Part shown: one piece after another, positions 18,546-35,695 of the stretch
Position numbering within the stretch: position 1 is the first letter of the stretch
Layout of the letters: every line of letters begins with the position of its first letter
NCBI GenBank assembly: GCA_944390115.1
Contig: CALXOW010000021.1
Coordinates: 1-47,446, forward strand
Direction: 5' to 3'
DNA length: 47,446 bases
Source of the DNA: an uncultured Anaerobiospirillum sp.
GTDB lineage: Bacteria > Pseudomonadota > Gammaproteobacteria > Enterobacterales > Succinivibrionaceae
Notes under the pieces: model-generated
Databases searched by the model: none
What the model was told of the DNA's origin: nothing
What the model saw: the letters and a program-made list of their open reading frames with translations, nothing else
Made by a program: the position numbers and the translations under genes

Positions 18546-18612
18546 AGTTTGCCGCAGATCTTTCTTTTTGTTTTGCTGCGGCTGGCTTTGCTTTACAGGA
18601 CTGTTTGTCGCT

Positions 18613-20451
18613 ATGCCTAAATATCGTTCCAGCGTCACTTACGAAACCAAGAAGATGGCCGGTGCTCGCGCCTTGTGGAAGGCCACCGGCATGAAGGATG
18701 AGGACTTTGGTAAGCCAATTATCGCCATTGCCAACTCCTTTACCGAGTTTGTCCCAGGCCACGTCCACTTAAAGGAAGTCGGCAGCTTAGTAGCAAAGGC
18801 AATTGAAGCCGCCGGTGGCGTCGCTAAGGAGTTCAATACCATCGCAGTTGATGATGGTATCGCCATGGGTCACTCGGGCATGCTCTATTCGCTGCCAAGC
18901 CGCGAAATCATCGCCGATAGCGTCGAGTACATGGTCCAAGCCCACAAGGCCGACGCCTTAGTGTGCATCTCCAACTGCGATAAGGTCACCCCAGGTATGT
19001 TAATGGCCACAATGCGCCTTAACATCCCAACAATCTTCGTCTCGGGCGGCCCAATGGAGGCCGGTGTTCTGCCAGGTCACCACAAGTTAGACCTGATCGA
19101 CGCCATGATCGTCTCGGCCGATCCAAAGGTTAGCGATGAAGAAATCAACGCTGTCGAGAGCGTCGCTTGCCCAACCTGCGGTTCGTGCTCGGGTATGTTC
19201 ACCGCTAACTCGATGAACTGCTTAACCGAGGCCTTAGGTTTAGCTCTGCCAGGCAACGGCACTATCGTCGCTACCCATGAGCTGCGTCAGAACCTCTTTA
19301 CTAAGGCCGGTGAACTGATCGTTAAGCTGGCTAAGGCCTACTATGAGGGCGAGGATACTTCGGTACTGCCTCGTTCGATTGCCACCAAGGATGCCTTTGA
19401 AAACGCTATGTCCTTGGATATCGCTATGGGTGGCTCGACCAATACCGTGCTGCACTTATTAGCGGTCGCCTGTGAGGCGGGCGTTGACTTCACTATGGCC
19501 GATATCGACCGTCTGTCGCGTCACGTCCCTCATCTGTGCAAGGTCGCCCCATCGACCCCTGATTACCATATCGAAGATGTTCACCGCGCCGGTGGCATTA
19601 TGTCGATTCTCCATGAGCTGGACCAAGCAGGCCTGTTCCACCACGATTGCCGCACCGTGCTGCAATGCTCCTTTGCCGAGCAATTACAGCGCTATGCTAT
19701 CGACGTCACCACCGATCCTGAGGTTAAGCACTTCTACCTGGCAGCCCCTGGGCGTGTCCGTACCATCAAGCCATTCTCGCAGAACAAGTTCTTTGAGAGC
19801 GCCGACCAAGATCGTGCCGCTGGCTGCATCCGTGATAAGGCCCATGCCTACAGCCAAGATGGCGGCTTAGCCGTGCTCTATGGCAACTTAGCCCAGGACG
19901 GCTGCATCGTGAAGACCGCCGGTGTTGACAGCTCGATTCTGACCTTTGTTGGCCCAGCTATTGTCTTTGAGTCGCAAGAAGAAGCCGTCGACGGCATCTT
20001 ATCGGGTAAGGTTAAGGCCGGTCACGTCGTAGTCATCCGCTACGAAGGCCCTAAGGGCGGCCCAGGTATGCAAGAGATGCTCTACCCAACTTCGTACTTA
20101 AAGTCGATGGGCTTAGGTAAGAAGTGCGCTCTCATCACCGATGGTCGCTTCTCGGGCGGCACCTCGGGTCTGTCAATTGGTCACGTCTCGCCAGAGGCTG
20201 CTAACGGCGGCATCATCGCCTTGGTTAAGGATGGCGATATGATCAAGATCGACATTCCAAACCGCGTCATCTCCTTAACCGTTGATGATGAGGAGCTCCA
20301 AGAGCGTCAGGTCCAGATGGAGCAGCGTGGCAGCTTTGCTTATCAGCCACAGCACCGCGATCGCGTCATCTCCACTGCCTTAAAGACCTACGCTTCCTTG
20401 GCTTCCTCCGCTGATAAGGGCGGTGTCCGTGACTTAGCCAAGCTGCGCTAA
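18613..20451 (+). CDS. ilvD: Dihydroxy-acid dehydratase
   Basis: 612 residues, full length compared with E. coli IlvD (616). It dehydrates 2,3-dihydroxy-isovalerate and 2,3-dihydroxy-3-methylvalerate to the 2-oxo acids that IlvE aminates. Iron-sulfur cysteines are seen in '[10 protein letters not shown]' and '[17 protein letters not shown]'. Start '[26 protein letters not shown]' is the canonical N-terminus, which fixes the ATG at 18613. C-terminal '[20 protein letters not shown]' is the IlvD/Edd signature. With ilvE it makes the last two steps of Val/Ile synthesis; other ilv genes are outside the window. Confidence 0.97.
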
Positions 20452-20591: not shown

Positions 20592-22385
20592 CTATTTGGT
20601 TCGGACATTGTCCATCTTTATTAATTCTTGCTGCATGCCTACAATCTTGTTGCTTCTGCGCCATGCGGCAATCTGACGATATTTGTCGGAGACAACAATT
20701 TGGACACTTGAAACGAGACGTCCTTCAGTTTTAATGTTATTGAGATAACATTTATCTAAAATTTGTTGTTCGGCTTTATCCAGCATCCGCAACTTGGCTT
20801 CTTTGGTGTCAGTATTTTTTGATAGGCGCTTAAGTTCAACCACATAGATGTGGTTCTTAGTTGTTATTAACAAATCGATGCGTCCTAAGTTGTTTGGCAC
20901 CTCTTCTTGAACTGTAATCGCAGTTTCTTTTAATGATGCTTTGCTAACATCTTTTTGGGTAGAAGCGTCAACATCTTCTTTAACGTTAATTACATCAGAG
21001 CGAAGCCATAATGCAATCAAAGTACGATAATGCATTTCTTTGGCTGAAGCCATAAAATCATAATGGATGCCACACAATAGCTCGTTTATAAACAAACAAG
21101 TTGAATTAATATCATCGGCCAAAATCGCATTTTGCACTTTAGTTAGATGATCGTAAGCATCGGAATCATCTATCCCAAGCATGTAACTTGTTAAAACTGC
21201 TGTATATTTTGCAGCTACATCATAGTTGGTTAGACGACAGATAAAACTACGTTTATCTGGTGGATTGTTTATTGTATCGGAAGTTATGTTCTTTAATGAA
21301 ACAAGGCCACTTTGAAATAAAATTTGAGTTTTAGTTATATTGTTGAATTTAGTAGGTGACGTTATATCTGATTGTTTAATCTTTACATCATAGCTACACA
21401 TTTGTAGGATATTATTTGGTGTAGATTTATAGCGATGCAAATAAGAGCGAAGAGCTGCAGTGGCATTTGAGCTATCCATCCAGTAGCTATTAAAGTTTGG
21501 CAGATCATCAGGATCATCGATTGATGTTGCGATTGGCTCAAAAAAACTATTTATAGAATCTGGACAATATACCTTAACTTTTGCATTATAATCAAAGCAA
21601 AAGCCATCATAGTGTTTTTCGAGTTTCGCCAATAGCTCGTCTTTAGTAAGCTTGAGTCTTTGCGCTGCTAGTTCTATGTATGGAGCAAAATTTGTTACAA
21701 GATCTTCTTGAGTGTAACCGAGCAAATCAGCATATTTAGGACGCATACTGATATCAAGAATATCCCGTCCAGTAAACAGGGACGCATCACGATATCGCAT
21801 AATGCCAGTAATTAAAATATATTGATAATTTTCTATATTACGCAGCCAAGAATAAAAGATATTGAGAGTTGAAAGTGATTTTTTAAACTCTTCTTCATTA
21901 TCAAGGTGTATTGATAATGGAAAATCCCATTCATCAATTAAGAAGACAAGCTTGTGACCTTGCGTAATTTCATCAAAACTTTTTAAAAAACCATTAAATG
22001 GTTGCTCAAGTTCTAAATCATTGGCTTGAGCAAATCCTACTTTACTGAATGCAGATTTGAGTGCCGCCTTCAAAGCGATCTCAAGATTATCACCCCTAAT
22101 ATCGATAAAAGAAAGATGGATTACTGGGTAGCGTTCTGTTATCGGCCAATTACCATAAATAGCTGTACCTGCAAAATTAGTATCACCATTAGTGAAGAGA
22201 TCTTTGAGCATAGAGCAAAGCAGAGATTTCCCCATACGGCGCGGTCGCGACAAAAAGACTTTTTGATGGTCAGTAACTAGGGCTCCTAGCTTAGCGGTTT
22301 TATCGACATAAAGAAGGTTATTGTCGCGCATTACGCTCCAGCTTGACACGCCAATAGGAATAGGTTTCAGTTGCTGTTTTGACAT
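20592..22385 (-). CDS. AAA-ATPase-like / PD-(D/E)XK nuclease-like protein (DUF1703 family)
   Basis: 597 residues. The N-terminus 'PIPIGVSSWSVMRDNNLLYVDKT' and 'LSRPRRMGKSLL' (Walker A GKS) match the AAA-ATPase_like family (PF09820). Walker B is 'LVFLIDEWD'. The C-terminus has a PD-(D/E)XK pattern: Asp in 'GRIDLLI' and Glu/Lys in 'VVELKR' (PF08011). The family is widespread and multicopy in gut anaerobes; its function is not established, and mobile-element or defence roles are guesses. I chose the ATG at 22385 (AGG 7 bases upstream), as it gives the usual family N-terminus; a frame to 22442 has no SD. The gene is clearly more AT-rich than ilvD beside it, suggesting transfer. Confidence 0.87.
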   Translation of the reverse strand: MSKQQLKPIPIGVSSWSVMRDNNLLYVDKTAKLGALVTDHQKVFLSRPRRMGKSLLCSMLKDLFTNGDTNFAGTAIYGNWPITERYPVIHLSFIDIRGDNLEIALKAALKSAFSKVGFAQANDLELEQPFNGFLKSFDEITQGHKLVFLIDEWDFPLSIHLDNEEEFKKSLSTLNIFYSWLRNIENYQYILITGIMRYRDASLFTGRDILDISMRPKYADLLGYTQEDLVTNFAPYIELAAQRLKLTKDELLAKLEKHYDGFCFDYNAKVKVYCPDSINSFFEPIATSIDDPDDLPNFNSYWMDSSNATAALRSYLHRYKSTPNNILQMCSYDVKIKQSDITSPTKFNNITKTQILFQSGLVSLKNITSDTINNPPDKRSFICRLTNYDVAAKYTAVLTSYMLGIDDSDAYDHLTKVQNAILADDINSTCLFINELLCGIHYDFMASAKEMHYRTLIALWLRSDVINVKEDVDASTQKDVSKASLKETAITVQEEVPNNLGRIDLLITTKNHIYVVELKRLSKNTDTKEAKLRMLDKAEQQILDKCYLNNIKTEGRLVSSVQIVVSDKYRQIAAWRRSNKIVGMQQELIKMDNVRTK

Positions 22386-22810
22386 AAAATTACCTGAAGC
22401 ATCTCGCGTAACAGTGAATGACAAAAGCTCATCTATGCTCATGTTGGCACAATAAGGCCTAATTTGAGACAGATGTGTTCTGCAACCGTGGAATCACCTT
22501 TTATGCATGGTGTTAATTTGCAAAAGCACTGTACAACAGAACGGTTAGCAAGCACCAGCATAAATGTGGTTTGCATTAGGCTTTTGTCCTGATGACGTAA
22601 CTTACGTGATGGACTAGACTACTAGTAAGACCCTTAGGAACGCAGGAGCTAATAGCTTCAACTCTTTTGTTGTTGTTTGCACCCAGTGGAGCCACCTCTC
22701 AAGTAGCTCCAAACTGCCGAATTTATTTACTACCGCGATCCTTACGCCCAAGCTGGGCCGTACTTACAGCCCAGTTGGACTATCGTGAGGCTGAGCGCGT
22801 GTGCCGTCTG
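22386..22810. other. Intergenic region upstream of the AAA gene
   Basis: 425 bases between the start of the minus-strand AAA gene and the end of the minus-strand DUF362 gene. I see no gene, clear terminator or repeat in it. Confidence 0.4.
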
Positions 22811-23815
22811 TTAGCGGTCTAAGTCGACCCACTGATAGCGCTTCTTGCCCATGCCTAATTCCTTGGCGCGATCCAAGATCAAGGTGCCGTTGCGGCTGTG
22901 GATACGCTCGAGCATTGGGGCATTATCTGGGGCTAAGTTAACCAAGTCGATAAAGGCTTGGTCGATAGCTACTGGGTCTAAGGAAGCCAAGATGCCGATA
23001 TCGCGCATGCATGGTGGGGCAGCATTGCCATCGCAGTCGCAGTCCACCGAGAGGTTGTTGACCACCGAGATAAAGAGCATACGCTTACCGTGATCAAAGT
23101 AATCGTAGACGGCGCTCGCGGCCTCGGCCATCGACTCGATGAATTGATTGTGCTCAGGGCTGTCATTGCTTAAGAAGGCGCCGTTGGCTACGGTCGCAAA
23201 GCCCCCAAACTCCTCAGAGCGCCCGGCGGTGTGAATTAAGCCCTTGCCGTGAGTGGACGCAACACCAATCGAGATGTTCTTTAAGGCACCGCCAAAACCG
23301 CCCATAGCATGGCCCTTGGCGTGCGAGAGCACAACCATAAAGTCGTAGCGCGATAAGTGGTCACCCACGATATCGTACTGCAAGTACTTGCCATGCTTGA
23401 CCGGAATCTGCATCTCGCCTTCTTCGTCCATCAGGTCAAATGGGGCGATCGCAGTAAAGCCGTGCTCGTTGATGACACGCCAGTGATCAGCGCTTTGGCA
23501 GCGGGCACCGGAGTAAGCGGTATTGCACTCGACAATAGTGCCGTCTAACTTTTGCACCAAGTCCTTGATTAAGGCAGGCTGCAAATAGTGCTTGTTACCG
23601 GCCTCGCCTGAGGACAGCTTGCAAGCGACCTTACCTGTTGGCACCCGTCCCAAAGCCTCATAGGCATTCAGCAAGCCCTTAGGGGTAATCTCGCGGGTGA
23701 AGTAAACCTTAGGGGCATCAGCCTCATCGCTGCGATGAGCTAACTTGCTAAAGTCGATGGCGTCAGCACCACCCTGCACCCCCGCAGCACTAAAGATTTT
23801 GTTCAGGTCAGACAT
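22811..23815 (-). CDS. DUF362 protein, proposed LarA-like nickel-pincer enzyme (cytoplasmic copy 1)
   Basis: 334 residues, single-domain DUF362, without the ferredoxin domain that many family members carry and without a signal peptide. Key residues: His169, Lys179 and His195 in 'KGHAMGGFGGALKN...LIH'. Their spacing (10 and 16) equals that of LarA His174, Lys184 (NPN attachment) and His200 (nickel ligand). An acidic residue in 'FTREITP' lies where LarA has 'SSDHTRP'. LarA His108 has no obvious counterpart; 'SSGEAGN' occupies that region. The Cys pair in 'SVDCDCDG' is conserved in all three local paralogues. The ATG at 23815 has AGGAG(T) 6 bases upstream. It is divergent from the operon starting at 24316. 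Family assignment is firm; NPN use is inference. Confidence 0.85.
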   Translation of the reverse strand: MSDLNKIFSAAGVQGGADAIDFSKLAHRSDEADAPKVYFTREITPKGLLNAYEALGRVPTGKVACKLSSGEAGNKHYLQPALIKDLVQKLDGTIVECNTAYSGARCQSADHWRVINEHGFTAIAPFDLMDEEGEMQIPVKHGKYLQYDIVGDHLSRYDFMVVLSHAKGHAMGGFGGALKNISIGVASTHGKGLIHTAGRSEEFGGFATVANGAFLSNDSPEHNQFIESMAEAASAVYDYFDHGKRMLFISVVNNLSVDCDCDGNAAPPCMRDIGILASLDPVAIDQAFIDLVNLAPDNAPMLERIHSRNGTLILDRAKELGMGKKRYQWVDLDR

Positions 23816-24013
23816 TTCGGCACTCCTCATAGCCTTTGCCTTCAGCCTCCAGAGTAAGTCCTACCGCACTCCTCTAGAGACTCCAATCCATTCCTAAGAT
23901 ATAGCCCGCCGCCTTGCTTTGCGCAAGGGGGCACATGCAAAAATGCAAACTTTGGGCAAAAAATTAAGAGCTGTAGGCAAACAGTCATGGAGCCAGCTAC
24001 CTTGTGACCCACG

Positions 24014-24059
24014 GACAAGCGATCTTGTGCTCCTCTGACAAACGACCTTGCGCCCCATC
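24014..24059. repeat. Two tandem 23-bp repeats
   Basis: Units 24014-24036 and 24037-24059 share GACAA-CGA-CTTG and align without gaps. A partial third unit (CCTTGTGACCC) precedes them. The same unit length as the repeats at 17042-17110, but a different sequence. Confidence 0.6.
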
Positions 24060-24243
24060 GTACCGCGCGTCCGGTAAGCAGGTTCTCAGCGCTCCGGCTC
24101 ACAGCCATACCACGCTGGCACCAAGTCATGTGCCTCCAGCATAGCATCATGTCCCCAGCGCATAGTCATGCGCCACGCTGGGGCGTAGGTTTAGCGCTTT
24201 TTCTCAAAGTTTTGCCCGTTTATATCCCATGACGGTTTTGACC

Positions 24244-24272
24244 TTTACCCACCTTTTTCCCTGCTTTAGATT
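24244..24272 (+). promoter_or_regulatory. Candidate promoter of the nickel/NPN operon
   Basis: TTTACC (24244-24249) and TAGATT (24267-24272) are separated by 17 bases and lie 44 bases before the ATG of the exported DUF362 gene. The match to sigma70 consensus is moderate; no better candidate is visible close to the start. Confidence 0.35.
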
Positions 24273-24315
24273 AAAACTAGCCCAGACTTTGGGCGCTAAT
24301 TCAAAGGTGTGGTTT

Positions 24316-25338
24316 ATGAAAATAAAAACTTTGGCGCAAGCCACGATCGCTGCTCTCGCTTTAAGTGGTGCCGCGCTCTTTAGCTCAACGGCCACTGCCG
24401 CTGATATCGACTTTACCAAGCTCGAGCACCGCGTCACGGACAGCTCCGCTCCTGTGGTCTATTTCACCTCGGACATTAGCCCTGAGGGTCTGCAGGCAGC
24501 CTATGAGGCTTTAGGCCGCGTCCCATCGGGCAACGTCGCCTTCAAGCTCTCCACCGGTGAAGCTGGTAACGATAATCACCTCGATCCAGATCTCATCAAG
24601 AACCTGGTTCAACAATTTAAGGGCACCATCGTCGAGTGCAACACCGCCTACGGCGGCTCGCGCTCCTCGACCTTGGCCCACCGTCAAGTGATCAAGGATC
24701 ACGGCTTTGATGCGATCGCTAAGGTCGACATCATGGACGAGGAAGGGTCGATGGAGATTCCGGTCACCGGCGGTGAGCACTTAAAGTTTGACCGTGTCGG
24801 TAGCCACTTGGCCAACTACGACTTCATGGTAGTTTTGACTCACTTTAAGGGTCACGCCATGGGCGGCTTTGGCGGTGCCTTAAAGAACATCTCGATCGGC
24901 GTCGCCTCGCAAGAAGGCAAGAACCTCATTCACACTGCAGGTCACACTGATAAGTTTGAGTGGGGTGCTTATGGCCCAATCGATACCCCAGAGCACGTTG
25001 ACTTCATCGAGTCGATGGCCGAAGCGGCTGATGCTGTCAGCGATCACTTTGACCACGGCAAGAACATGCTCTATATCTCGGTTATGAACAATATGTCGGT
25101 CGACTGCGACTGCGATGGTAGCCCAGCTCCGGTTGACATGCACGATATCGGCATCTTAGCTTCGCTCGACCCTGTGGCCCTGGATCAAGCCTGCGTTGAC
25201 TTAGTCTATCAGGCTCCAGATGGCGCCTCGCTCATTGAGCGTATGGAAAGCCGCCAAGGCCCACACATCTTAGACCATGCCGTCAAGATGGGCTTAGGCC
25301 AAAAGAGCTATCAGCTGGTTTCCTTAGACCAAAAGTAA
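24316..25338 (+). CDS. DUF362 protein with Sec signal peptide, proposed LarA-like enzyme (exported copy)
   Basis: 340 residues. The first 29 form a Sec signal peptide: 'MKIKTLAQ', a hydrophobic Ala/Leu core, then 'TATAA' before the mature start. There is no twin-arginine motif. The mature part parallels the two cytoplasmic paralogues. His180, Lys190 and His206 keep the LarA spacing (10 and 16), and 'FTSDISP' resembles LarA's phosphate-binding 'SSDHTRP'. The 'SVDCDCDG' Cys motif is present. If it uses NPN, the nickel cofactor must be loaded before Sec export or obtained outside, which is a puzzle; a periplasmic nickel-related role is the alternative. The ATG at 24316 has AGGTG about 7 bases upstream. 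First gene of the likely nickel/NPN operon; the permease gene follows after 23 bases. Confidence 0.85.
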   Translation: MKIKTLAQATIAALALSGAALFSSTATAADIDFTKLEHRVTDSSAPVVYFTSDISPEGLQAAYEALGRVPSGNVAFKLSTGEAGNDNHLDPDLIKNLVQQFKGTIVECNTAYGGSRSSTLAHRQVIKDHGFDAIAKVDIMDEEGSMEIPVTGGEHLKFDRVGSHLANYDFMVVLTHFKGHAMGGFGGALKNISIGVASQEGKNLIHTAGHTDKFEWGAYGPIDTPEHVDFIESMAEAADAVSDHFDHGKNMLYISVMNNMSVDCDCDGSPAPVDMHDIGILASLDPVALDQACVDLVYQAPDGASLIERMESRQGPHILDHAVKMGLGQKSYQLVSLDQK

Positions 25339-25361
25339 GCTCATAAGGAGAGAGACGGTAC

Positions 25362-26279
25362 ATGTGGGATTTAATTGAGCGCGAAGCGATCTATCTTTAC
25401 TACTATCTGGACATTCAGGTCCGGCAGCTGTTCTGGTTTTACGTCTTGGGCACGCTGCTGGGCTCAGCCATCTCGGTCTTTGGTAAGGATAGATTAAAGC
25501 GGCTGTTGACCGCACAAGTAGGCGTAAGTATGGGCTTTATCGGCCTTATTCTCGCAGCCTGCTTGGGCTTTGCCTCGCCTATCTGCATGTACGGCACTCT
25601 GCCTTTAGTGGCAGCTCTCTACCACCAAGGAGTACGCCAAGATTACTTGGCGTGCTTCATGGTCGCCTCGGTTCTGTTAAATCCGCAACTAATTGCCTAT
25701 TCTCTGGCCTTAGGATCGACCGTTTTCACCTTGCGACTCGTCACCTGCCTCATCATGGCACTCACCGCAGGCCTTTTGATCCGCTACTGCTTTAAAGACC
25801 AAGCTTTCTTTAACTTTGTCAATTTCGGCCCTGGTCGCAATAACGACACACATCCGAACCTAGCAGTGCGCTACTTAAAGAACGTCGGGCGCAACCTCAA
25901 GGCAACCTTACCTTACTTCTTTGCCGGTATGGTGCTCTCGGCCCTCTTCTCGATTCACGTACCGCAAGATGCCATCGCTAGCGTCTTAGGTAAAGGCAAT
26001 CCGATGAGCGTACTCTATGCCGCGACCTTAGGCGTTCCACTTTATTTATGCGGCGGCGGCACCATCCCCATTCTCATCATGTGGCTGGCGTCGGGTATGT
26101 CCAAAGGCGCAGCGGTCGCCTTTATGCTCTCTGGCCCTGCGACCAAGATCAACAACTTAGCCGCGCTCAAGGCGATTCTGGGGATCAAGCACTTTTGCTA
26201 CTACATCGCCTTTGTCATCATCACCGCGCTCATCTTGGGTCTTGCCACCCATATTCTGAGCGCTACCATCGGGCTTTAG
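25362..26279 (+). CDS. YraQ/ArsP-type permease (PF03773 family)
   Basis: 305 residues with about eight membrane segments in two halves. Family marks are 'ASPICMYGTLPLVAAL' in the first half and 'LYLCGGGTIPILIMWLASGMSKGAAVAFMLSGPATKI' in the second. Relatives include ArsP and SO_0444-type permeases linked to export of metals or organo-arsenicals. Here it sits between two DUF362 genes and ahead of a nickel importer, so it may handle nickel or a metal-related metabolite; that is inference. GGAGAG lies 9 bases before the ATG. Loosely repeated CTTGAGCC/CTTAAGCC units fill the 178 bases to the next gene. Confidence 0.82.
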   Translation: MWDLIEREAIYLYYYLDIQVRQLFWFYVLGTLLGSAISVFGKDRLKRLLTAQVGVSMGFIGLILAACLGFASPICMYGTLPLVAALYHQGVRQDYLACFMVASVLLNPQLIAYSLALGSTVFTLRLVTCLIMALTAGLLIRYCFKDQAFFNFVNFGPGRNNDTHPNLAVRYLKNVGRNLKATLPYFFAGMVLSALFSIHVPQDAIASVLGKGNPMSVLYAATLGVPLYLCGGGTIPILIMWLASGMSKGAAVAFMLSGPATKINNLAALKAILGIKHFCYYIAFVIITALILGLATHILSATIGL

Positions 26280-26457
26280 CCGAGAGCTTGCTAAGGCTTG
26301 AGCCTAGTTCTTGAGCATAAGGCTTGACCCTCGGGATTGAGCCCATGCGAGACTTTAGTCTTTGCTAGGCTTAAGCCATTACTGAACTTAAGCCATTGCT
26401 ACAATAGGGAGCTGTTGCCAACCCTGAACTTTCCTCAGATGAGTGTGGAGAAGAGCC

Positions 26458-27390
26458 ATGTGTTTAGACCTGTCAACCTTAAAGCATCGCGTCAGCGACC
26501 AAGCAGCACCCCAGGTGTACTACACCCAAGACATCAGTCCATCGGCGCTGCGCACCGTCTATGAGGCCTTAGGCCGCAAACCTGCAGGCCGGGTTGCAGT
26601 TAAGCTCTCCACCGGCGAGGCCGGTAATCCCAATTATTTGCAACCAGCCTTAATCAAAGACTTAGTGCAAAGCTTTGCAGGCACCATCGTTGAGGGCAAT
26701 ACCGCCTATCAGGGCGCAAGGCACGAGACCACAGTGCACCGCCAGCTCATTCATGAGCACGGCTTTGATGCTATCGCGAAGGTGGACATCTTAGATGAGG
26801 AAGGCAGCATCGACCTGCCGGTGGTGGGCGGCACCCATCTTAAGTTTGACCGCGTGGGCAGCCACCTGCAAAACTATGACTTCTTAGTGGTGCTCTCGCA
26901 CTTTAAGGGCCATCCGCGCGGTGGCTTCGGCGGTGCCTTAAAGAATATCTCCATTGGCATTGCCGCGCCCGAGGGCAAGAACCTGATTCACACCGCTGGT
27001 ACCACCAATACCTCGAACTGGGGACCGTATTTATCCAGAAACTTTGATAGCCCCGAGCACCTCGCGTTTATCGAATCGATGGCCGAAGCGGCCCAAGCGA
27101 TCTGTGCCCACTTTGGCCCCAAGATGCTCTATATCTCGGTGCTCAACCACCTGTCCGTGGATTGTGACTGCGTGTCCCACCCAGCACCTGCCACCATGGC
27201 CGACCTCGGCATTGCCGCAAGCTTGGACCCAGTAGTGCTCGACCAAGCCTGCGTCGATCTGATTTATGCCGCCCCAGATGGTGCCGATGTCATTGAGCGC
27301 ATGGAAAGCCGTCATGGCAGCCGCATCTTAGAGCACGCCGCGCACTTAGGCGTTGGCTCGCGTCACTATCAACTCACTATCTTAGATTAA
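26458..27390 (+). CDS. DUF362 protein, proposed LarA-like nickel-pincer enzyme (cytoplasmic copy 2)
   Basis: 310 residues. It starts directly at 'CLDLSTLKHRVSD', without signal peptide or N-terminal extension. His152, Lys162 and His178 in 'GHPRGGFGGALKN...LIH' keep the LarA spacing of 10 and 16; 'YTQDISP' is the likely phosphate-binding loop. It differs from the two others by 'HPRGG' for 'HAMGG' and 'VEGNTAY' for 'VECNTAY'. GGAG lies 7 bases before the ATG; a GTG at 26443 is possible. The nickel permease gene begins 9 bases after its stop, so translation of the importer is tied to it. This is the strongest contextual link between DUF362 and nickel in the window. Confidence 0.85.
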   Translation: MCLDLSTLKHRVSDQAAPQVYYTQDISPSALRTVYEALGRKPAGRVAVKLSTGEAGNPNYLQPALIKDLVQSFAGTIVEGNTAYQGARHETTVHRQLIHEHGFDAIAKVDILDEEGSIDLPVVGGTHLKFDRVGSHLQNYDFLVVLSHFKGHPRGGFGGALKNISIGIAAPEGKNLIHTAGTTNTSNWGPYLSRNFDSPEHLAFIESMAEAAQAICAHFGPKMLYISVLNHLSVDCDCVSHPAPATMADLGIAASLDPVVLDQACVDLIYAAPDGADVIERMESRHGSRILEHAAHLGVGSRHYQLTILD

Positions 27391-27399
27391 GGAACTATC

Positions 27400-28395
27400 A
27401 TGCCCGCACCCCAGCACCTCCGACCACCGCACTACTCCTTTAACTGGGAGCAGCTGGGTGCGCGCCTTATGCTCAAGCTCATCTGGCTTAGCGCTCTCCT
27501 GTTGGGCCTGAGCTTTTTAACCTTTGCCTTAACCCATTTGGCACCAGGCGACGCAGCGCTCAATACCTTACAACCGATGGGCGTCACCTCACGTGAGGTC
27601 ATCACAGCACTACGCCAACATCTAGGGCTTGATGCACCGCTGGCCGTCCAATACCTTACCTGGCTTACTAACCTCATCACCGCCGGTGATTTGGGGCTTT
27701 CAAGTCACTTTGGCCGGGAGGTCAGCACGGTCTTAGCTGAGGGACTGACCGTCTCGCTGCCGCTTTGTGCCTTAGCCTTCACCTTCCTCATTGTAATAAC
27801 CCTACCCCTGGGCACCTATTGCGCCTTGCGCCCTAACAGCCTGATTGACAAGCTCTGTCAGGTGCTAAGCATCTTAGTGCTCTCAGTACCAGGCTTTCTT
27901 ATTGCCCTCTTAGTGCTCTACTTTGCTGGAGTCAAATTAGGGCTCATTACTACCCTACGTCCAGACCAGGCCCCCGACCTCATCGCCCCGGCCCTATGTT
28001 TGGCCTTGCCTCTGATCGCCTTTTACCTGCGCCAAGTGCGTACTGTGATCGCCCAAGAGCTCACCGCGCCCTATCTGACAGCCTTAACCGCCCGTGGCAT
28101 CAGCCTAACGCGCCAGCTGACGCATCACGTACTGCCGCGTGCCACCGAGAGCCTACTGCCCTTACTGAGCCTGAGCATTGGCCATTTGTTATGCGGTACG
28201 GTCGTGATTGAGCGCATCTTCTCCTTACACGGCTTAGGCTTTATCGCCTTAGAAGCCATCACCTATCGCGACTTGCACCTCATTGCCGCCTACGTGCTCT
28301 ATAGCGTACTCATCTTCACCGTGCTCAATGCCGCCGTGGCTGCACTCACGACGCACTTAAGCCGCAAAGCTTTAAGCGAGGCCGCCCCATGCTAG
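27400..28395 (+). CDS. nikB: Nickel/peptide-type ABC transporter permease (NikB-like)
   Basis: 331 residues of the DppB/OppB/NikB class: a first membrane helix followed by 'LAPGDAALNTL', a long periplasmic loop with 'LGLDAPLAVQYLTWL', and five more helices. The EAA-type cytoplasmic loop is 'TALTARGISLTRQLTHHVLPRA', and 'GTVVIERIFSLHGLG' is the C-terminal family motif. The 20-residue N-terminal extension before the first helix is longer than usual; the ATG at 27400 follows TAAGGA closely and is coupled to the DUF362 stop. The permease overlaps nikC by 7 bases. The nickel assignment rests on the downstream lar genes; peptides or other metals are the alternative. Confidence 0.85.
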   Translation: MPAPQHLRPPHYSFNWEQLGARLMLKLIWLSALLLGLSFLTFALTHLAPGDAALNTLQPMGVTSREVITALRQHLGLDAPLAVQYLTWLTNLITAGDLGLSSHFGREVSTVLAEGLTVSLPLCALAFTFLIVITLPLGTYCALRPNSLIDKLCQVLSILVLSVPGFLIALLVLYFAGVKLGLITTLRPDQAPDLIAPALCLALPLIAFYLRQVRTVIAQELTAPYLTALTARGISLTRQLTHHVLPRATESLLPLLSLSIGHLLCGTVVIERIFSLHGLGFIALEAITYRDLHLIAAYVLYSVLIFTVLNAAVAALTTHLSRKALSEAAPC

Positions 28396-29225
28396 CAATT
28401 ACCGCCCAGCCAGTGCTCAAGTCCACTACCGGCTTTAAGTTAAGTGCGGCTGCCACCGGGCTCTTCTTTGTCTTGGTGCTCACCGGCCCTATCTGGTATG
28501 GCCTGTTAACGGGCTATGACCCCTACACCATGGATATTAGTCAGAGTCTTGCGGGCCCAAGCCTTGAACACCCCTTGGGCTGTGACCGCTTAGGGCGCGA
28601 TCAACTCATGCGTTTATTATGGGGCTCGTACTATTCACTCCCGCTGGCGGCAGCCTTGATTATCAGCGCCACGGTAGCAGGTACGCTCATCGGCCTCACC
28701 GCTGCACTGCGCGGCGGGATCTTAGCCCGGATCTTTAGCGCTACGGTTAATGTCCTCATGGCCTTTCCCCAGCAGCTTGCGGTCATCTTGCTTCTGGGCA
28801 TGTTAGGCGTGGGCCTGACGCACAGCATTTTTGCCCTAGCGCTCTTTTGGTGGGTGCACTTTGCCCAGCTTACCTACACGCGCACCCGTGCCTTGCTCAA
28901 GGAAGAGTACATCAGAGCCGCCAAGCTCTCAGGTGAGAGCACCTTTAGTCTGGTGCGCTACTACCTCTTGCCCCAGCTAAAAGATCAGCTCCTTTTGACC
29001 GCCCTCTTAGACTTTAGCGCGGCGATCTTGGCGCTAGCGACCCTTTCATTTTTGGGTCTTGCGACCCAACCGCCGATCCCAGAGTGGGGCTCGATGCTCT
29101 ATGAGAGCCAGCCTTATTTACAAAATGCCCCCCATCTCTTAATCGGCCCGCTGCTCTTTATTTTCCTCAGCGCTCTGTGCTGCAACCTCATGGCCCTCAA
29201 TTTCCGTCAGGTGAAGTCATGCTAA
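28389..29225 (+). CDS. nikC: Nickel/peptide-type ABC transporter permease (NikC-like)
   Basis: 278 residues of the DppC/NikC class. 'EHPLGCDRLGRDQLMRLLWGSYYSL' is the conserved periplasmic entry motif ('HPLGTDxLGRD'), with Cys in place of Thr. The EAA loop is 'YIRAAKLSGESTFSLVRYYLLPQL', and 'ATLSFLGLATQPPIPEWGSML' is the family C-terminal motif. It pairs with NikB as a heterodimeric pore. It overlaps nikB by 7 bases and nikA by 7 bases, so the three are translationally coupled. Confidence 0.87.
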   Translation: MLAITAQPVLKSTTGFKLSAAATGLFFVLVLTGPIWYGLLTGYDPYTMDISQSLAGPSLEHPLGCDRLGRDQLMRLLWGSYYSLPLAAALIISATVAGTLIGLTAALRGGILARIFSATVNVLMAFPQQLAVILLLGMLGVGLTHSIFALALFWWVHFAQLTYTRTRALLKEEYIRAAKLSGESTFSLVRYYLLPQLKDQLLLTALLDFSAAILALATLSFLGLATQPPIPEWGSMLYESQPYLQNAPHLLIGPLLFIFLSALCCNLMALNFRQVKSC

Positions 29226-30787
29226 GCAAAACCCTTTCTGCTCTGACCCTTGCCCTCTTAGCCTGCGCTTGCTCGCCGGAGACTCCACCAGAGTCCGCAC
29301 CGGCAGCTGACAGCAAGCAAGCTTCAGCGCCCGCCCCACGCAACCTCAAGGTTGGCATTTTCTTCCTCGAGGGCTCGCTTGATCCTAAGAATATGTTTGA
29401 TGCCTGGGTCTTGATGCGCGTAGGTGCCGGTGAAGCCTTACTGCGCCTTAATGACAACGGAACCTTAGAGCCGTGGCTGTGCCAAAGCTATCGCGTGGTC
29501 GATCCCTTAAATTACGAGCTCACCTTAAAGCCTAATCTCACCTTCAGCGATGGCACCAAGGTCACCGCCACCGCAGTTAAAAACAGCCTCGAGCGCGTCT
29601 ACGCCTTAAACCCGCGCGCCAAGCAGTACTTTACCTTAGACCACATCACGGTCAACGACCCACTTCGTCTCACCATCACGACCAAGGCGCCGGTGCCGGA
29701 GCTCTTTTACAATCTGTGCGAGCCGCTCTTTAGCATTATCAAGGTTCCAGAGAACAATACGGGGAATTGGCCAGATGAGACCATTACCCTGCCGATCACC
29801 ACGGGCCCTTATCAGGTCACGGCCTTTACCCCGAACCAAAGCGTGACAGTTCAGGCGAACCCTAACTTCCGCAATAAGGTAACGCTCATTTCTGAAATCG
29901 AGTTCCTGTATCAGCCCGAAGAGCAAGCGCGCACTATGGCGCTGCAATCAGGTGAAGTAGCGCTGATTCCTACCGTCAATAACTCCACCTTACCGCTGTT
30001 TACCGACAAACCCGACTTTACCGTGCTGCGCCGCATCAGCCCGCGCACCAACGTGGTCTATATCAATCACCAAAACGAGCTCTTAGCTCAGCTCAGTGTC
30101 CGGCAAGCCTTAGATTTGGCCCTCAATCGCGCCCAAATCGTGTCCTTAATCGGCGGCAGCCCGGCAGCGAGCCTGATTGCCCCTGAGCTGGTGCAAGGCT
30201 TTGTCCCTGAGAGCAAGTACGACCCCGAGCAAGCCCGCAATATTTTAGATGAGGCGGGTATTATCGACCACAACGGCGATGGCACCCGTGACTGCAACGG
30301 GCAGGAGCTGAGCTTTAACTACTACTTCAAGTCTGACCACGGCTCAGCTGACAGTACCCTCATTGCCCAATGCCTGCAACAAGACTGGGCCCCGCTCGGC
30401 GTCAAGCTCAATCTCTATCCTGCTGAGAACTTAGCGTCCATTATGGCCTCAGGTGACTTTGACTTCTTTAGCGCCAACGACAGCACCCTGCCCACGGGCG
30501 ACCCATACGTCTTTATGCGCGATCGCTTCCATCAAGACGGTGACGCTAACTTTGGCCACTACCACAACGCCACCCTTGAAGACCTCTTAGCCACTATGGC
30601 TCAGACTTTTAATGAGAAGCAGCGCCAGCAGCTCTCCCAGGACTTGCTCACAGAGCTCAAGGCTGATGTCGGCGCCTTTTTCATCAACCACATCGAGATC
30701 AATGAAGTAGCCCGCAAGGAGCTTAAAGACCTGCACCTGTACAGCTTTGACTACTATTTCATTGATGATCAGGTGCACTATGAGTAG
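29219..30787 (+). CDS. nikA: Nickel-type ABC transporter substrate-binding lipoprotein (NikA-like)
   Basis: 522 residues of the SBP_bac_5 family. A short lipoprotein signal ends at 'LALLACAC' with Cys as lipid anchor, followed by an Ala/Pro/Ser linker. The mature start 'LDPKNMFDAWVLMRVGAGEALLRLNDNGTLEPWLCQSY' is close to the NikA/CntA pattern (V/M-R-x-G-x-G-E-x-L). 'DGTKVTATAVKNSLERVYALNPRA' is also typical. These proteins bind nickel as a chelate (histidine, staphylopine or similar). The ATG at 29219 is inside the end of nikC. The position of A after B and C differs from E. coli nikABCDE. Confidence 0.85.
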   Translation: MLSKTLSALTLALLACACSPETPPESAPAADSKQASAPAPRNLKVGIFFLEGSLDPKNMFDAWVLMRVGAGEALLRLNDNGTLEPWLCQSYRVVDPLNYELTLKPNLTFSDGTKVTATAVKNSLERVYALNPRAKQYFTLDHITVNDPLRLTITTKAPVPELFYNLCEPLFSIIKVPENNTGNWPDETITLPITTGPYQVTAFTPNQSVTVQANPNFRNKVTLISEIEFLYQPEEQARTMALQSGEVALIPTVNNSTLPLFTDKPDFTVLRRISPRTNVVYINHQNELLAQLSVRQALDLALNRAQIVSLIGGSPAASLIAPELVQGFVPESKYDPEQARNILDEAGIIDHNGDGTRDCNGQELSFNYYFKSDHGSADSTLIAQCLQQDWAPLGVKLNLYPAENLASIMASGDFDFFSANDSTLPTGDPYVFMRDRFHQDGDANFGHYHNATLEDLLATMAQTFNEKQRQQLSQDLLTELKADVGAFFINHIEINEVARKELKDLHLYSFDYYFIDDQVHYE

Positions 30788-31619
30788 CCCCTTAGAGGAG
30801 TGCACCACCTTGTTAAAGCGCACGCCCTTATTGGAGCTCTCGAACGTCGGCATTAGCCTTACAGGCCTGCCCCTCCTGACCCACGTCAACCTCACGGTTA
30901 ACGCGGGGGAAGCGGTAGCCTTATGCGGCACCTCCGGCCGGGGCAAAAGCACCTTGCTCAAGGCTATCTGCGGTTTGCTTCCACAAAGATTTGCCCTGAG
31001 TGGCCAAATCCTATTTCAGGGCACCGATCTGAGTACGCTCAGCGCTAAGCAATGGCAGCAAATTAGAGGTCCTGGAATGGCACTGATGGGCCAAAACGTC
31101 AGCGAAAACTTCGATGAGCGCGCCAGCGTCTTAAGCCACTTTGTGGAAGCGGTGCACGCCCATGATAAGAAGCGTACGCGTGACTCCATTAAGGCCCAAG
31201 CCTTAGAGCTGCTCTATCGCTTGGAGCTGGCCTATCCCGAGCGCATCCTAAGCCAGAAAAGCTACGAGTTTTCGCAGGGCATGAGTCAGCGCATTGCTTT
31301 AGCGCTGACCTTGATGCTGCGCCCTCAGCTCATCTTGGCCGATGAATTTACCTCGGCCCTAGACTTAAGTACGCGTCTGGCGGTACTGACCGAGCTTAAG
31401 ACCTTACAAGCCGAGTTTGGCTTTGCCTTGCTCTTTGTCACCCATCACCCTGATGAGGCGAGCTTTATGGCGCAGCGTCGCTACGACCTCACCGAGGACG
31501 GCACCATCACTGAAACGGGCATCGGCACCGATACAGGCATCGACACCGATACGGGCATCGGCACCACTGACCGCACGAGCGCCCTAGAGGAGGGCTCATG
31601 CTCAAGATTGAACACTTAG
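30780..31619 (+). CDS. nikD: ABC transporter ATPase (NikD-like)
   Basis: 279 residues. Walker A 'GTSGRGKST', a signature-like 'FSQGMSQRIALA' (the usual LSGGM is FSQGM), Walker B 'LILADEFTSALD' and switch His in 'VTHHPDEA' are visible. It energises the nikBC pore with the next gene. The ATG at 30780 overlaps the nikA stop by 8 bases. The last 30 residues are a degenerate repeat of Thr/Gly/Asp/Ile ('GIGTDTGIDTDTGIGT') encoded by three 18-base units, absent from normal NikD proteins. It overlaps nikE by 22 bases. Confidence 0.86.
   Translation: MSSPLEECTTLLKRTPLLELSNVGISLTGLPLLTHVNLTVNAGEAVALCGTSGRGKSTLLKAICGLLPQRFALSGQILFQGTDLSTLSAKQWQQIRGPGMALMGQNVSENFDERASVLSHFVEAVHAHDKKRTRDSIKAQALELLYRLELAYPERILSQKSYEFSQGMSQRIALALTLMLRPQLILADEFTSALDLSTRLAVLTELKTLQAEFGFALLFVTHHPDEASFMAQRRYDLTEDGTITETGIGTDTGIDTDTGIGTTDRTSALEEGSCSRLNT
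31515..31568. repeat. Three tandem 18-bp repeats within the nikD 3' end
   Basis: Units of 18 bases with the core GGCATCG(G/A)CACC occur at 31515-31532, 31533-31550 and 31551-31568. They keep the reading frame and add six-residue blocks (TGIGTD-like) to the NikD tail. Confidence 0.8.
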
Positions 31620-32515
31620 CTTTAAGCTACCTCCTCCCCACGGGCAAAGAGCTGCCCGCACTGCAAGACTTCAATCTAACGATCAAGCAAGGGCAAATGC
31701 TAGGCTTGGTTGGAGAGTCCGGCTGTGGCAAGACCACCTTATGCCATGTGCTAACCAAGAGCCTGCCCTACCACGGCTCAATCACATTTGAGGGCACAGA
31801 GCTTAAAGATCTCACTGACACCAAGGCCTACTACGCTCAGGTGCAGTACATTTTCCAAGACCCCAAGAGCACGGTGCCGCCTCATATGAACTTGGAGCAC
31901 TGGGCCTTAGCTCCACTTAAGAACCTCAAGGGTATGAGCCCAAGACAAGCCCAAAGCTTAATTAAAAGGCTCATGACCGAGGTAGGCTTAGACCCAAAGC
32001 TGTTAGCAAGAAAACCAAGTGAGGTCAGCCTAGGTCAGCTCCAGCGTCTGAGCCTCATCAAAAGCTTAGCGCTCGAGCCCAAGCTCTTGCTCTGCGATGA
32101 AATCACTTCGGCCTTAGACCCCAAGTCCACGCAGTTGTGCTTAGAGCTCCTGACCGACTATGTGCGCCGCACTGAGCTTAGTGTCCTGTTTATCACCCAC
32201 GACCTGAGCACCGCGCTCACCTGGTGCCCGCAGGTAGCAGTGATGTTTAAAGGCCAGATCTTAGAGCAAGGCCCCGCTTATGAGCTCAAGCACCCGTATC
32301 TTCAGAGCCTCAAGCACGCCGCCCAGGTCTTAGCAGGACTACAGGCGCCCGCGCCTCCCGTCAACGGGGCTCCGACCGTCACTTGCCCCATGAAGCAAGA
32401 GCGGCTCTGCCCATGGCTCATGCGCTGCAGCAAGGTCCAAGACCAGTGCCTGACCCACAAACCAAAACTTAGGCCCCTCAGTTCTGAGCACCAAATTTGT
32501 TGCCACGTTGCCTAA
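31598..32515 (+). CDS. nikE: ABC transporter ATPase (NikE-like)
   Basis: 305 residues. Walker A 'GESGCGKTT', Q-loop 'YIFQDPKSTVPP', a weak signature 'VSLGQLQRL' in place of LSGGQ, Walker B 'LLLCDEITSALD' and switch 'ITHDLS' are present. The C-terminal extension (from about 245) is Cys-rich ('TCPMKQERLCPW...CSKVQDQCLTH'), equivalent to the oligopeptide/nickel family C-terminal domain that in relatives can bind an iron-sulfur cluster. It starts within nikD (22-base overlap). Second ATPase subunit of the importer. Confidence 0.86.
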   Translation: MLKIEHLALSYLLPTGKELPALQDFNLTIKQGQMLGLVGESGCGKTTLCHVLTKSLPYHGSITFEGTELKDLTDTKAYYAQVQYIFQDPKSTVPPHMNLEHWALAPLKNLKGMSPRQAQSLIKRLMTEVGLDPKLLARKPSEVSLGQLQRLSLIKSLALEPKLLLCDEITSALDPKSTQLCLELLTDYVRRTELSVLFITHDLSTALTWCPQVAVMFKGQILEQGPAYELKHPYLQSLKHAAQVLAGLQAPAPPVNGAPTVTCPMKQERLCPWLMRCSKVQDQCLTHKPKLRPLSSEHQICCHVA

Positions 32516-32573
32516 TCACCCAGCACCAATTCATCACCACAGCACCAATTCGTCGCCTCAAGGAGAAATTAGA

Positions 32574-33335
32574 ATGGATCTTGATGCCCTGCTCCACGAT
32601 GTCCAAGCTGGCACCATATCAATTGAAGCGGCCAAAGCCCAGCTCAAAGCCGCCCCGTACTTAGATTTAGGCTATGCCAAGCTCGACACCCATCGCGGGC
32701 TGCGCACTGGCATGGCTGAGGTGGTCTTTTGCCAAGGCAAGGCCGATGAGCACTTATTGGCTATCTTTGAGCACTTACTCAATACCGAGGGCGCGATCTT
32801 AGGCACCCGCTGCAGCAAGGAGCAAGCTGAGCTCATTAAGGCGCATATCAAAAGCCACGAGCTCTACTACGACCCCATCAGCCACATCATCTCCACCAAG
32901 AACCCTGAAGATAAGAGCGCCGGGCGCGGCCTGATCTGCGTGGTCACCGCCGGTACCGCCGACATCAAGGTCGCCGAGGAAGCCGCGCAAGTATGCGAGT
33001 TTTTTGGCAACAAGGTGGAGCGCATCTACGATGCGGGCGTAGCAGGCCTGCACCGCTTACTAAGCCATGTTGAGACGATTCAAGCGGCCAACTGCACCAT
33101 TGCGGTTGCTGGCATGGAAGGCGCCTTAGCCTCAGTCATTGGCGGCCTAGTAGGCAATCCGGTGATTGCGGTGCCGACCTCGGTGGGCTATGGCGCTAAC
33201 TTCCACGGTCTGTCGGCCTTGCTTACCATGCTCAATTCCTGTTCTAATGGGGTAGCTACCGTCAACATCGACAATGGCTTTGGGGCGGCCTTTATCGCCA
33301 GCCAAATCAACCGCTTGGCCTGCCAAGCAAAGTAG
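32574..33335 (+). CDS. larB: Nickel-pincer cofactor biosynthesis protein LarB
   Basis: 253 residues. The C-terminal two thirds are the PurE/AIR carboxylase-like domain of LarB: 'VVTAGTADIKVAEEAAQVCEFFG', 'YDAGVAGLHRLL', 'VAGMEGALASVIGGLVGNPVIAVPTSVGYGA' and 'NIDNGFGAAFIA'. LarB carboxylates the pyridinium ring of nicotinic acid adenine dinucleotide and hydrolyses it to the dicarboxylate mononucleotide, the first step of NPN synthesis. AGGAG lies 8 bases before the ATG at 32574. It follows nikE by 58 bases and precedes larC by 40 bases. Confidence 0.95.
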   Translation: MDLDALLHDVQAGTISIEAAKAQLKAAPYLDLGYAKLDTHRGLRTGMAEVVFCQGKADEHLLAIFEHLLNTEGAILGTRCSKEQAELIKAHIKSHELYYDPISHIISTKNPEDKSAGRGLICVVTAGTADIKVAEEAAQVCEFFGNKVERIYDAGVAGLHRLLSHVETIQAANCTIAVAGMEGALASVIGGLVGNPVIAVPTSVGYGANFHGLSALLTMLNSCSNGVATVNIDNGFGAAFIASQINRLACQAK

Positions 33336-33375
33336 CAAATGCAGTAGCAGTCTCAAGCACTTTCAGGAGGAGCAA

Positions 33376-34857: not shown

Positions 34858-35695
34858 TAACCCCCTCGAGCAAGCCCGCCTCAAACTTGAGGTAGCTCTC
34901 TCTGAGCTAACCCAGCACAAGATTGCCCTGGCCTTCTCCGGCGGCGTCGACAGCTCCTTGCTCCTGGTTTTACTGGGCCTGCGCTTAAAGCAAGGCCACT
35001 TACCCCAGGGCCTCGTGGCATTTACCGTGAGCACTACCATGCACCCACAGCATGAGCTCAAGGAAGCACAAGACCTAGCAAAGTCCTTTAACATTGAGCT
35101 TGAAGTGCTCAAGCTCGACGAGCTGCCAGTTATCGCGTACAACCCGGTCAATCGCTGCTATCTGTGCAAGCATGCTCTGATGACTAGGCTCAAAGAGCGT
35201 GCCGCTGAGCTGGGCTGTTCTGTAGTGATTGATGGCACTAATGCCGATGATCTCAAACAGTACCGCCCAGGACTGCAAGCACTCAAGGAGCTCGGCATTA
35301 AAAGTCCGCTCGCGCAGGCGGGCATCACCAAGGAGCAGGTGCGCGGCATGTTAGCGCAGCTGGGCCTTAATATCGCGCACAAACCGTCGAGCCCGTGCCT
35401 AGCCACGCGCTTCCCCTACGGCACTGAGCTCAAGCCTGAGGCCATGGCCGCAGTAGGCAAGGCCGAAGAGCAGCTTCATGCTCTGGGTTTTACCAATGTG
35501 CGGGTGCGCGCCTACCCTGAGGCGCGTTTGATTCGCCTGGAGCTTGACGCTGAGGCCCTAAGCCGCGCGGTGGAGTACCGTAGTCTCATCTTGCCGATCC
35601 TGCAAAGCATGGAGGGCTACGATCACTACACCTTAGATCTCGAGGGCTTTGCCTCCGGCAGTATGGACAAGGCTATTTTGGCCCAAACCAAGTAA
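34844..35695 (+). CDS. larE: LarE, sulfur-transfer enzyme for the nickel-pincer nucleotide
   Basis: 283 residues of the PP-loop ATPase class. The pyrophosphate loop is 'FSGGVDSSLL' (residues 31-40). It should adenylate the dicarboxylate nucleotide and install two sulfurs. Cys105 and Cys108 ('NRCYLCKH') and Cys185 ('SSPCLATRFPYG') match the three-cysteine LarE type, which in Thermotoga holds a [4Fe-4S] cluster and works catalytically, as opposed to the single-cysteine sacrificial LarE of Lactiplantibacillus. The start overlaps the larC end by 14 bases. Last gene of the operon; no classical larA follows. Confidence 0.95.
   Translation: MLSANNPLEQARLKLEVALSELTQHKIALAFSGGVDSSLLLVLLGLRLKQGHLPQGLVAFTVSTTMHPQHELKEAQDLAKSFNIELEVLKLDELPVIAYNPVNRCYLCKHALMTRLKERAAELGCSVVIDGTNADDLKQYRPGLQALKELGIKSPLAQAGITKEQVRGMLAQLGLNIAHKPSSPCLATRFPYGTELKPEAMAAVGKAEEQLHALGFTNVRVRAYPEARLIRLELDAEALSRAVEYRSLILPILQSMEGYDHYTLDLEGFASGSMDKAILAQTK

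Follow-up and report, generated by a model that had tools for sequence, protein, structure and literature searches.

Three proteins of the family DUF362 (PF04015), referred to here as DUF362a, DUF362b and DUF362c, are encoded close together on a 47,446-nucleotide stretch of DNA from an uncultured Anaerobiospirillum species (contig CALXOW010000021.1; the whole stretch is the window), near larB, larC and larE, the genes known from operons for the nickel-pincer nucleotide (NPN). We propose that the trio are probably apoenzymes for the NPN provided by these adjacent genes and belong to a second family of NPN enzymes with the LarA fold, LarA itself being the first. The initial annotation had drawn the same inference from a His/Lys/His motif shared with LarA; it remains plausible and is now partly supported, on better grounds than before, by the coupling of genes rather than by the motif. 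According to this proposal a Nik-type importer would bring nickel into the cell and LarB, LarE and LarC would build NPN, which would be tethered to a conserved lysine (K184 in P0001, the full open reading frame (ORF) of DUF362a), with H200 as a nickel ligand and H174 placed over the cofactor as acid/base. The reaction would probably be a net hydride transfer rather than a racemisation, with the activity lying partly outside the cytoplasm.

From position 24229, the plus strand of the window carries DUF362b, an ArsP_1-type permease, DUF362c, five genes of a nickel-type ATP-binding cassette (ABC) importer, larB, larC and larE, separated at first by gaps of 23, 163 and 9 bp and overlapping thereafter (Table 1). 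The same-strand run agrees with the adjacency that had been claimed for larBCE, though the genes are less close than this implied: they start about 5 kb past the last DUF362 gene, behind the five nickel-type transport genes, and the ArsP_1 permease sits inside the trio. The nickel label of the importer comes from its best NCBIfam matches, all of which are under their equivalog cut-offs. All three DUF362 proteins exceed the Pfam gathering score of PF04015 (24 bits), and DUF362b and DUF362c are 63% and 58% identical to DUF362a; no NCBIfam name is reached over its cut-off by any of the trio, and a PF04015 profile search of the host genome finds these three DUF362 proteins and no others. A profile search for LarA (PF09861) gives no match anywhere in this genome, which is 92.85% complete, in line with the earlier observation that a classical larA is missing.

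Among 57 genomes of the Succinivibrionaceae, the family of the host, DUF362 is found in 19 and larB over its cut-off in 17, all of which belong to these 19, compared to none of the 38 genomes that lack DUF362 (p 1.2e-12, uncorrected). Most of the other genomes in the family give weak LarB matches under the cut-off, which we take as PurE, and none of the 57 has LarA over its cut-off, the sole weak match being itself a DUF362. In 15 of the 17 genomes the two genes share a contig and are separated by 1.1-10.6 kb, and the unit DUF362-ArsP-larB recurs in several genera. Ancestry alone does not give the link, because the genus of the window is split, with eight genomes having both DUF362 and larB and three having neither. 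The DUF362 genomes without larB are G017, where a larC fragment near the end of a contig makes an assembly gap likely, and G042, where larC is also missing.

Two further settings, separate from the Succinivibrionaceae, support the coupling of DUF362 to larBCE. For instance, in Clostridium polyendosporum a DUF362-ArsP pair is followed by a MerR regulator, CbiM-PDGLE, CbiQ and an ABC ATPase, and then by larC-larE-larB. The importer here is of the energy-coupling factor type and is unrelated to the nickel-type ABC importer of the window; that unrelated importers occupy the same setting suggests that it is the DUF362-ArsP pair for which nickel and larBCE are provided. The other setting is a group of DUF362 proteins with twin-arginine motifs, represented by three genomes (L242-L244) that carry on one strand an aldo/keto reductase, DUF6599, DUF362, a NapH/NapG-like ferredoxin protein, larC, larB and larE, with no ArsP permease in any of the three operons read. 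The positions of larE are those read in the window and in the loci retrieved.

We also considered 299 genomes from the phylum of C. polyendosporum, of which 158 have larB, 228 have DUF362 (E<1e-10, seven weaker matches being dropped) and 150 have LarA (E<1e-30, with 44 weaker matches set apart; these are the strong LarA genomes below). DUF362 tracks larB more strongly than strong LarA does: larB occurs in 143 of 228 genomes with DUF362 and 15 of 71 without (odds ratio 6.3, p 7.5e-10), compared to 94 of 150 with strong LarA and 64 of 149 without (odds ratio 2.2, p 8e-4; 2.5 when any LarA match is counted). Among genomes lacking any LarA match, for which the initial annotation had proposed a co-occurrence survey, larB is present in 30 of 50 with DUF362 and 10 of 55 without (p 1.7e-5); put the other way, DUF362 occurs in 30 of the 40 larB genomes without a LarA match, and one of the 10 others has a weak DUF362 match. 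In a draw of 100 genomes from the phylum of the host, DUF362 is found in 26, all of which are within the 29 that have larB at E<=1e-20 (in 25 cases over the larB cut-off). All but one of the 26 seem to belong together, in the twin-arginine group to which L242-L244 also belong (perhaps Magnetococcia, to judge by the sampling pattern), and few independent events are therefore represented. Among 14 control genomes, larB and larC occur in the same six; DUF362 is found in four of these and in one of the eight others (Bacteroides ihuae). Four of the controls have larBC and no LarA match, and two of these, Synechococcus elongatus and Haloferax volcanii, have DUF362 matches.

In a tree of 92 DUF362 rows, built by a quick method, there is a clade of 42 rows of which 38 come from larB-positive genomes; its SH-aLRT support of 83 is below the starred level. 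Outside the Succinivibrionaceae the clade covers 15 genomes, 13 of them larB-positive, compared to four of the 32 examined outside the clade, and its members come from Synergistales, several Clostridia, Spirochaetes, Coriobacteriia, Burkholderiales, a Bacteroidetes bacterium and one unclassified organism. The Succinivibrionaceae also contain more divergent DUF362 paralogues that have no signal peptide and lie outside the main clade (L017, L029 and L030).

The likeness of the DUF362 motif to that of LarA is more than chance, as the Lar_N matches, a profile alignment and the predicted fold together indicate. Lar_N (PF09861) matches all three proteins weakly over the motif stretch (E 0.0038 to 0.13; 11.8, 16.9 and 12.4 bits, short of the cut-off of 23.3), and one close relative passes this cut-off with 25.7 bits (G094/L164, the same DUF362 as in L087). 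The comparison of DUF362 and LarA profiles, which had been proposed as a check, pairs H174, K184 and H200 of both families over 182 columns with a probability of 92% and an E-value of 5.8e-7; the LarA set used includes ORFs chosen by position alone (L157, of 976 residues, and L163, both possibly in the wrong frame), and narrower inputs gave 15% and E 0.0018 with 8 sequences and 91% and E 1.1e-6 with 19. An AlphaFold2 model of DUF362a (pLDDT 93.8, from the 92-row alignment) has the predicted fold of LarA: all 17 PDB matches found by Foldseek at E<=1e-3 are of LarA type, holo-LarA included, with modest TM-scores of 0.39-0.47 by query length and rmsd values of 5.0-12.8. For a model of a twin-arginine DUF362, 18-23% identical to those of the window (pLDDT 91.6), the first 18 matches are again of LarA type, followed by an alcohol dehydrogenase at 9.9e-4. 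A sequence search of the PDB gave a single match for DUF362, at E 0.44, which we take as chance. The relationship is not new as such, since passages of PMC11770544 already record DUF362 and DUF2088 in the same Pfam clan, CL0471.

The motif itself, a His followed by Lys 10 residues on and by a second His 16 residues further, reads directly from the translations of all three proteins, where the His-to-His stretches of 27 residues are HAMGGFGGALKNISIGVASTHGKGLIH (DUF362a), HAMGGFGGALKNISIGVASQEGKNLIH (DUF362b) and HPRGGFGGALKNISIGIAAPEGKNLIH (DUF362c). The residue numbers first assigned (169, 179 and 195 for DUF362a) fit translation from the internal Met codons listed as likely starts in Table 1; in the full ORF P0001 the residues are H174, K184 and H200, by coincidence the numbers of LarA. 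Each is invariant in 115 of 115 distinct close relatives of the subfamily, and the spacing is 10/16 in 113 of them and 10/17 in the other two. The spacing claimed for the trio is thus confirmed, with two corrections: the second spacing is not DUF362-wide and the first is not special to the trio. Lys-to-His is 15 residues in 25 of 25 clostridial proteins of iron-sulphur (Fe-S) type and 14 in all 21 extracted twin-arginine proteins, while the first spacing, a K-x-H-9-K pattern, is common to both groups and the trio. The pattern with a later His is found in 25 of the 30 ORFs taken from the top clostridial matches, and all 25 bear a pair of Fe-S motifs at the C-terminus. Among the five ORFs without the pattern, three (L213, L214 and L235) also lack Fe-S motifs and may have been read in the wrong frame. 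The argument that the exact spacing proves NPN binding was rejected, as the residues are DUF362-wide and occur in genomes lacking larB and larC. The motif by itself cannot show NPN use, and the evidential weight is carried by the gene coupling.

Several findings weigh against the trio being NPN enzymes. H174, K184 and H200 are equally invariant in relatives from Bacteroidota and Bifidobacterium whose genomes have no larB or larC match. Close-relative loci were the best 80 of 536, and larB was looked for in 50 of their genomes, the 30 left out all being Bacteroidota; 20 of the 50 have larB (19 over the cut-off, and nine of the 20 without a Lar_N match over its cut-off), while 30 do not, none of these having larC, and the 30 include 20 of 21 Bacteroidota and three of three Bifidobacterium. 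Three of these loci (L031-L033) have match scores equal to those of G001, G002 and G015 in the family set; they seem to represent the same species and are not independent of that set. A search for active-site differences that would set the larB-rich clade apart found none, two other positions being the sole ones that differ. As the initial annotation noted, the catalytic His108 of LarA is not conserved: its T-G-x-H-R aligns with N-T-A-Y-x-G-x-R in DUF362, which has no His there, in a part where the alignment is weak. The co-occurrence counts carry no correction for phylogeny, genome size or incompleteness, and in strong LarA genomes the link of DUF362 to larB is non-significant (90 of 139 compared to 4 of 11, p 0.1). 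Corynebacterium glutamicum and Methanocaldococcus jannaschii, the other two controls with larBC and no LarA match, have no DUF362 match, and DUF362 of the clostridial Fe-S type was not seen by eye beside larB where both are listed on one contig. Finally, NPN is an intracellular product, whereas DUF362b and many relatives bear signals for Sec export or of lipoproteins.

These points would best fit a LarA-fold protein with another cofactor, such as a metal or Fe-S site formed by the conserved Lys, His and cysteines C102, C264 and C266, with larBCE serving some unrecognised protein, a possibility we consider rather unlikely. In its favour, the His/Lys/His residues are kept in genomes lacking larB and larC, C. 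glutamicum and M. jannaschii imply that other users of NPN may exist, and the cysteines are well conserved, C264 and C266 being invariant in all 115 close relatives and C102 present in 112 of them; counted by rows, C102 is present in 40 of 42, 39 of 39 and, for the twin-arginine rows, 8 of 8 (23 of 31 is also given for the subfamily of the trio). Against it stand the tight operons that join DUF362 to nickel-type import and larBCE in each of three settings, where no other shared candidate was found, and the strong co-inheritance of DUF362 with larB. The absence of larB is moreover not exclusive of NPN use, as 56 of 150 strong LarA genomes also lack it, the same share (37%) as the 85 of 228 DUF362 genomes. 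We had considered that larB-less relatives exclude NPN use and rejected this, LarA homologues at E<1e-30 being as often without larB as DUF362; because of this equality, either NPN use is compatible with a missing larB or some LarA homologues do without NPN. Of the 56 larB-less strong LarA genomes, 35 were examined and 30 also have no larC match (G206, G226, G232 and others), for which the alternatives are gaps in metagenome-assembled genomes, salvage of the cofactor or LarA homologues without NPN.

If the trio are indeed NPN enzymes, net hydride transfer is more likely than racemisation as their reaction, because DUF362 has no counterpart of His108 and occurs elsewhere with Fe-S, flavodoxin or quinol-type electron carriers. 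Examples are a fusion to flavodoxin (L093), Fe-S aldo/keto reductases adjoining DUF362 in Succinivibrionaceae (L246, L247) and Bacteroidota (L067), and the Fe-S tails of clostridial members; no redox partners of these kinds lie beside the trio of the window. The fusions seen are flavodoxin-DUF362, DUF362-DUF1893, Cu_amine_oxidN1-DUF362 and DUF362 with a secretion tail (L093, L062, L106 and L109). A twin-arginine motif is found near the N-terminus of 21 of 21 DUF362 proteins extracted from the twin-arginine group and in the one aldo/keto reductase N-terminus read there, and from their gene content these operons look like a periplasmic redox system that may be built on an NPN enzyme.

Signal peptides, judged by a hydropathy rule and by eye (three calls being corrected by eye) rather than by a dedicated predictor, point to a link between export and the ArsP permease. 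DUF362b has a Sec-type signal peptide from its likely start and may be exported, while none was seen by this rule in DUF362a and DUF362c. ArsP-adjacent DUF362 rows are of Sec type in 11 of 11 cases in the Succinivibrionaceae, and outside this family and the Bacteroidota all 14 such proteins are either exported by Sec or lipoproteins, compared to two with Sec signals, one with a twin-arginine motif and nine with no signal among the 12 that are not ArsP-adjacent. The Bacteroidota are an exception, with 49 of 51 rows of Sec type and just one ArsP-adjacent. Among the Bacteroidota a TonB receptor lies within 6 kb of DUF362 in 19 of the 80 close-relative loci (for instance L099:10839-12791), and larB is found in none of the 12 examined genomes of such loci. 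A more ambitious scheme, which we put forward as speculative and on balance improbable, is that DUF362 is a large second NPN family whose members catalyse net redox reactions, largely outside the cytoplasm, and NPN a shared, vitamin-like cofactor of gut communities. Twin-arginine members would be loaded with NPN inside and exported folded, the adjacent ArsP-type permease would carry NPN or its nickel out to Sec-exported members, and Bacteroidales without larBC, whose DUF362 proteins are mostly secreted or lipoproteins and often near a TonB receptor, would scavenge the cofactor of their neighbours.

The adjoining nickel-type importer and ArsP_1 permease, the exported copies and the several paralogues might also fit a non-enzymatic chaperone or sensor handling nickel or other metals for the operon, which we regard as very unlikely given the enzyme fold with its ligand residues, the redox enzymes among DUF362 fusions and neighbours, and the constant neighbours in the examined loci, which are larBCE and not genes of other nickel enzymes. 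Least credible of all is that DUF362 is a conventional NPN racemase or epimerase, and so in effect a LarA that has diverged: the LarA fold and the Lys/His/His residues agree with this, and passages of PMC12611868 describe LarA homologues with a single catalytic His, but these lose the other His, His174, whereas DUF362 has no counterpart of His108, is about 100 residues shorter than LarA and has redox-type neighbours and fusions.

Table 1. Genes of the DUF362-lar region, with positions in the window and supporting matches
Feature	Position	Strand	Matches and remarks
DUF362a	22811-23830	-	PF04015 E 1.4e-43, 149.8 bits; divergent; likely start 23815; His/Lys/His codons within 23231-23311
DUF362b	24229-25338	+	PF04015 E 1.6e-46, 159.3 bits; likely start 24316; His/Lys/His codons within 24853-24933
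ArsP_1-type permease	25362-26279	+	PF03773 E 1.6e-38; recurring partner of Sec-exported DUF362
DUF362c	26443-27390	+	PF04015 E 2.6e-40, 139 bits; likely start 26458; His/Lys/His codons within 26911-26991
NikB/OppB-type permease of nickel-type ABC importer	27400-28395	+	best NCBIfam match Opp2B nickel permease E 5.1e-67, under equivalog cut-off
NikC/OppC-type permease	28389-29225	+	NCBIfam Opp2C E 1.3e-63, under cut-off; BPD_transp_1
NikA-type solute-binding protein	29177-30787	+	NCBIfam Opp5A_nikA E 7.4e-83, under cut-off; SBP_bac_5
ABC ATPase of importer (place of NikD)	30747-31619	+	PF00005 E 1.1e-25; NikD named by position alone
ABC ATPase of importer (place of NikE)	31598-32515	+	PF00005 E 1.3e-27; NikE named by position alone
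larB	32508-33335	+	NCBIfam LarB 284.7 bits (cut-off 175)
larC, single ORF with His-rich stretch	33274-34857	+	NCBIfam LarC1 179 bits (cut-off 90), LarC2 109.3 bits (cut-off 50)
larE	34844-35695	+	TIGR00268 246.9 bits (cut-off 150)

The permease within the trio also matches the NCBIfam families SO_0444 Cu/Zn efflux and SaoE, in both cases under the cut-off. The larC ORF contains a long, repeat-like stretch rich in His and Asp (HGHDHSHEHVHDHEH...), which is plausibly a nickel store. Beyond DUF362a lies a gene with AAA-ATPase_like and PDDEXK_9 domains (20592-22442); in the relative G005 the ORF next beyond DUF362a is a dihydroxy-acid dehydratase, a type found further out in the window at 18568-20451, and the ATPase gene may for this reason be an insertion. 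A scan for promoters and terminators gave signals no better than those in shuffled sequences.

Passages of a 2024 mBio paper (PMC11796402) put at about 15% the genomes analysed there that have larB, larE and larC without larA, many cyanobacteria among them, and state as an open question which unknown non-LarA proteins use NPN in them; H. volcanii is discussed as a possible NPN organism in parts of PMC8305020. DUF362 is a concrete candidate for such users, for instance in S. elongatus and H. volcanii, which have larB, larC and DUF362 and no LarA match. No proposal of DUF362 as an NPN user was found in the titles and abstracts of the literature searched, which left subscription journals mostly outside, and one may be in print elsewhere. 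If the proposal is true, NPN chemistry would no longer be confined to racemases but would take in a very large and so far unstudied family, would occur outside the cytoplasm and would probably include redox reactions.

Compared to the LarA superfamily (Lar_N/DUF2088, PF09861), the NPN-dependent racemases and epimerases of 2-hydroxyacids, DUF362 is alike in predicted fold, in the aligned Lys and two His, and in linkage to larB, larC and larE. It differs in that the trio remain under the Lar_N cut-off, have no His at the place of His108 and are shorter, and in that DUF362 has exported members, redox partners, and a nickel importer and ArsP permease in its operon. With other DUF362 proteins, such as the Fe-S-tailed clostridial ones and NCBIfam Npun_F2552, the trio share K-x-H-9-K and differ in having no Fe-S tail; Npun_F2552 matches none of the three, and matches clostridial and twin-arginine members under its cut-off. 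Set beside larB-larC-larE operons for NPN, the window has all three genes over their NCBIfam cut-offs, with DUF362 in the place where LarA would be expected.

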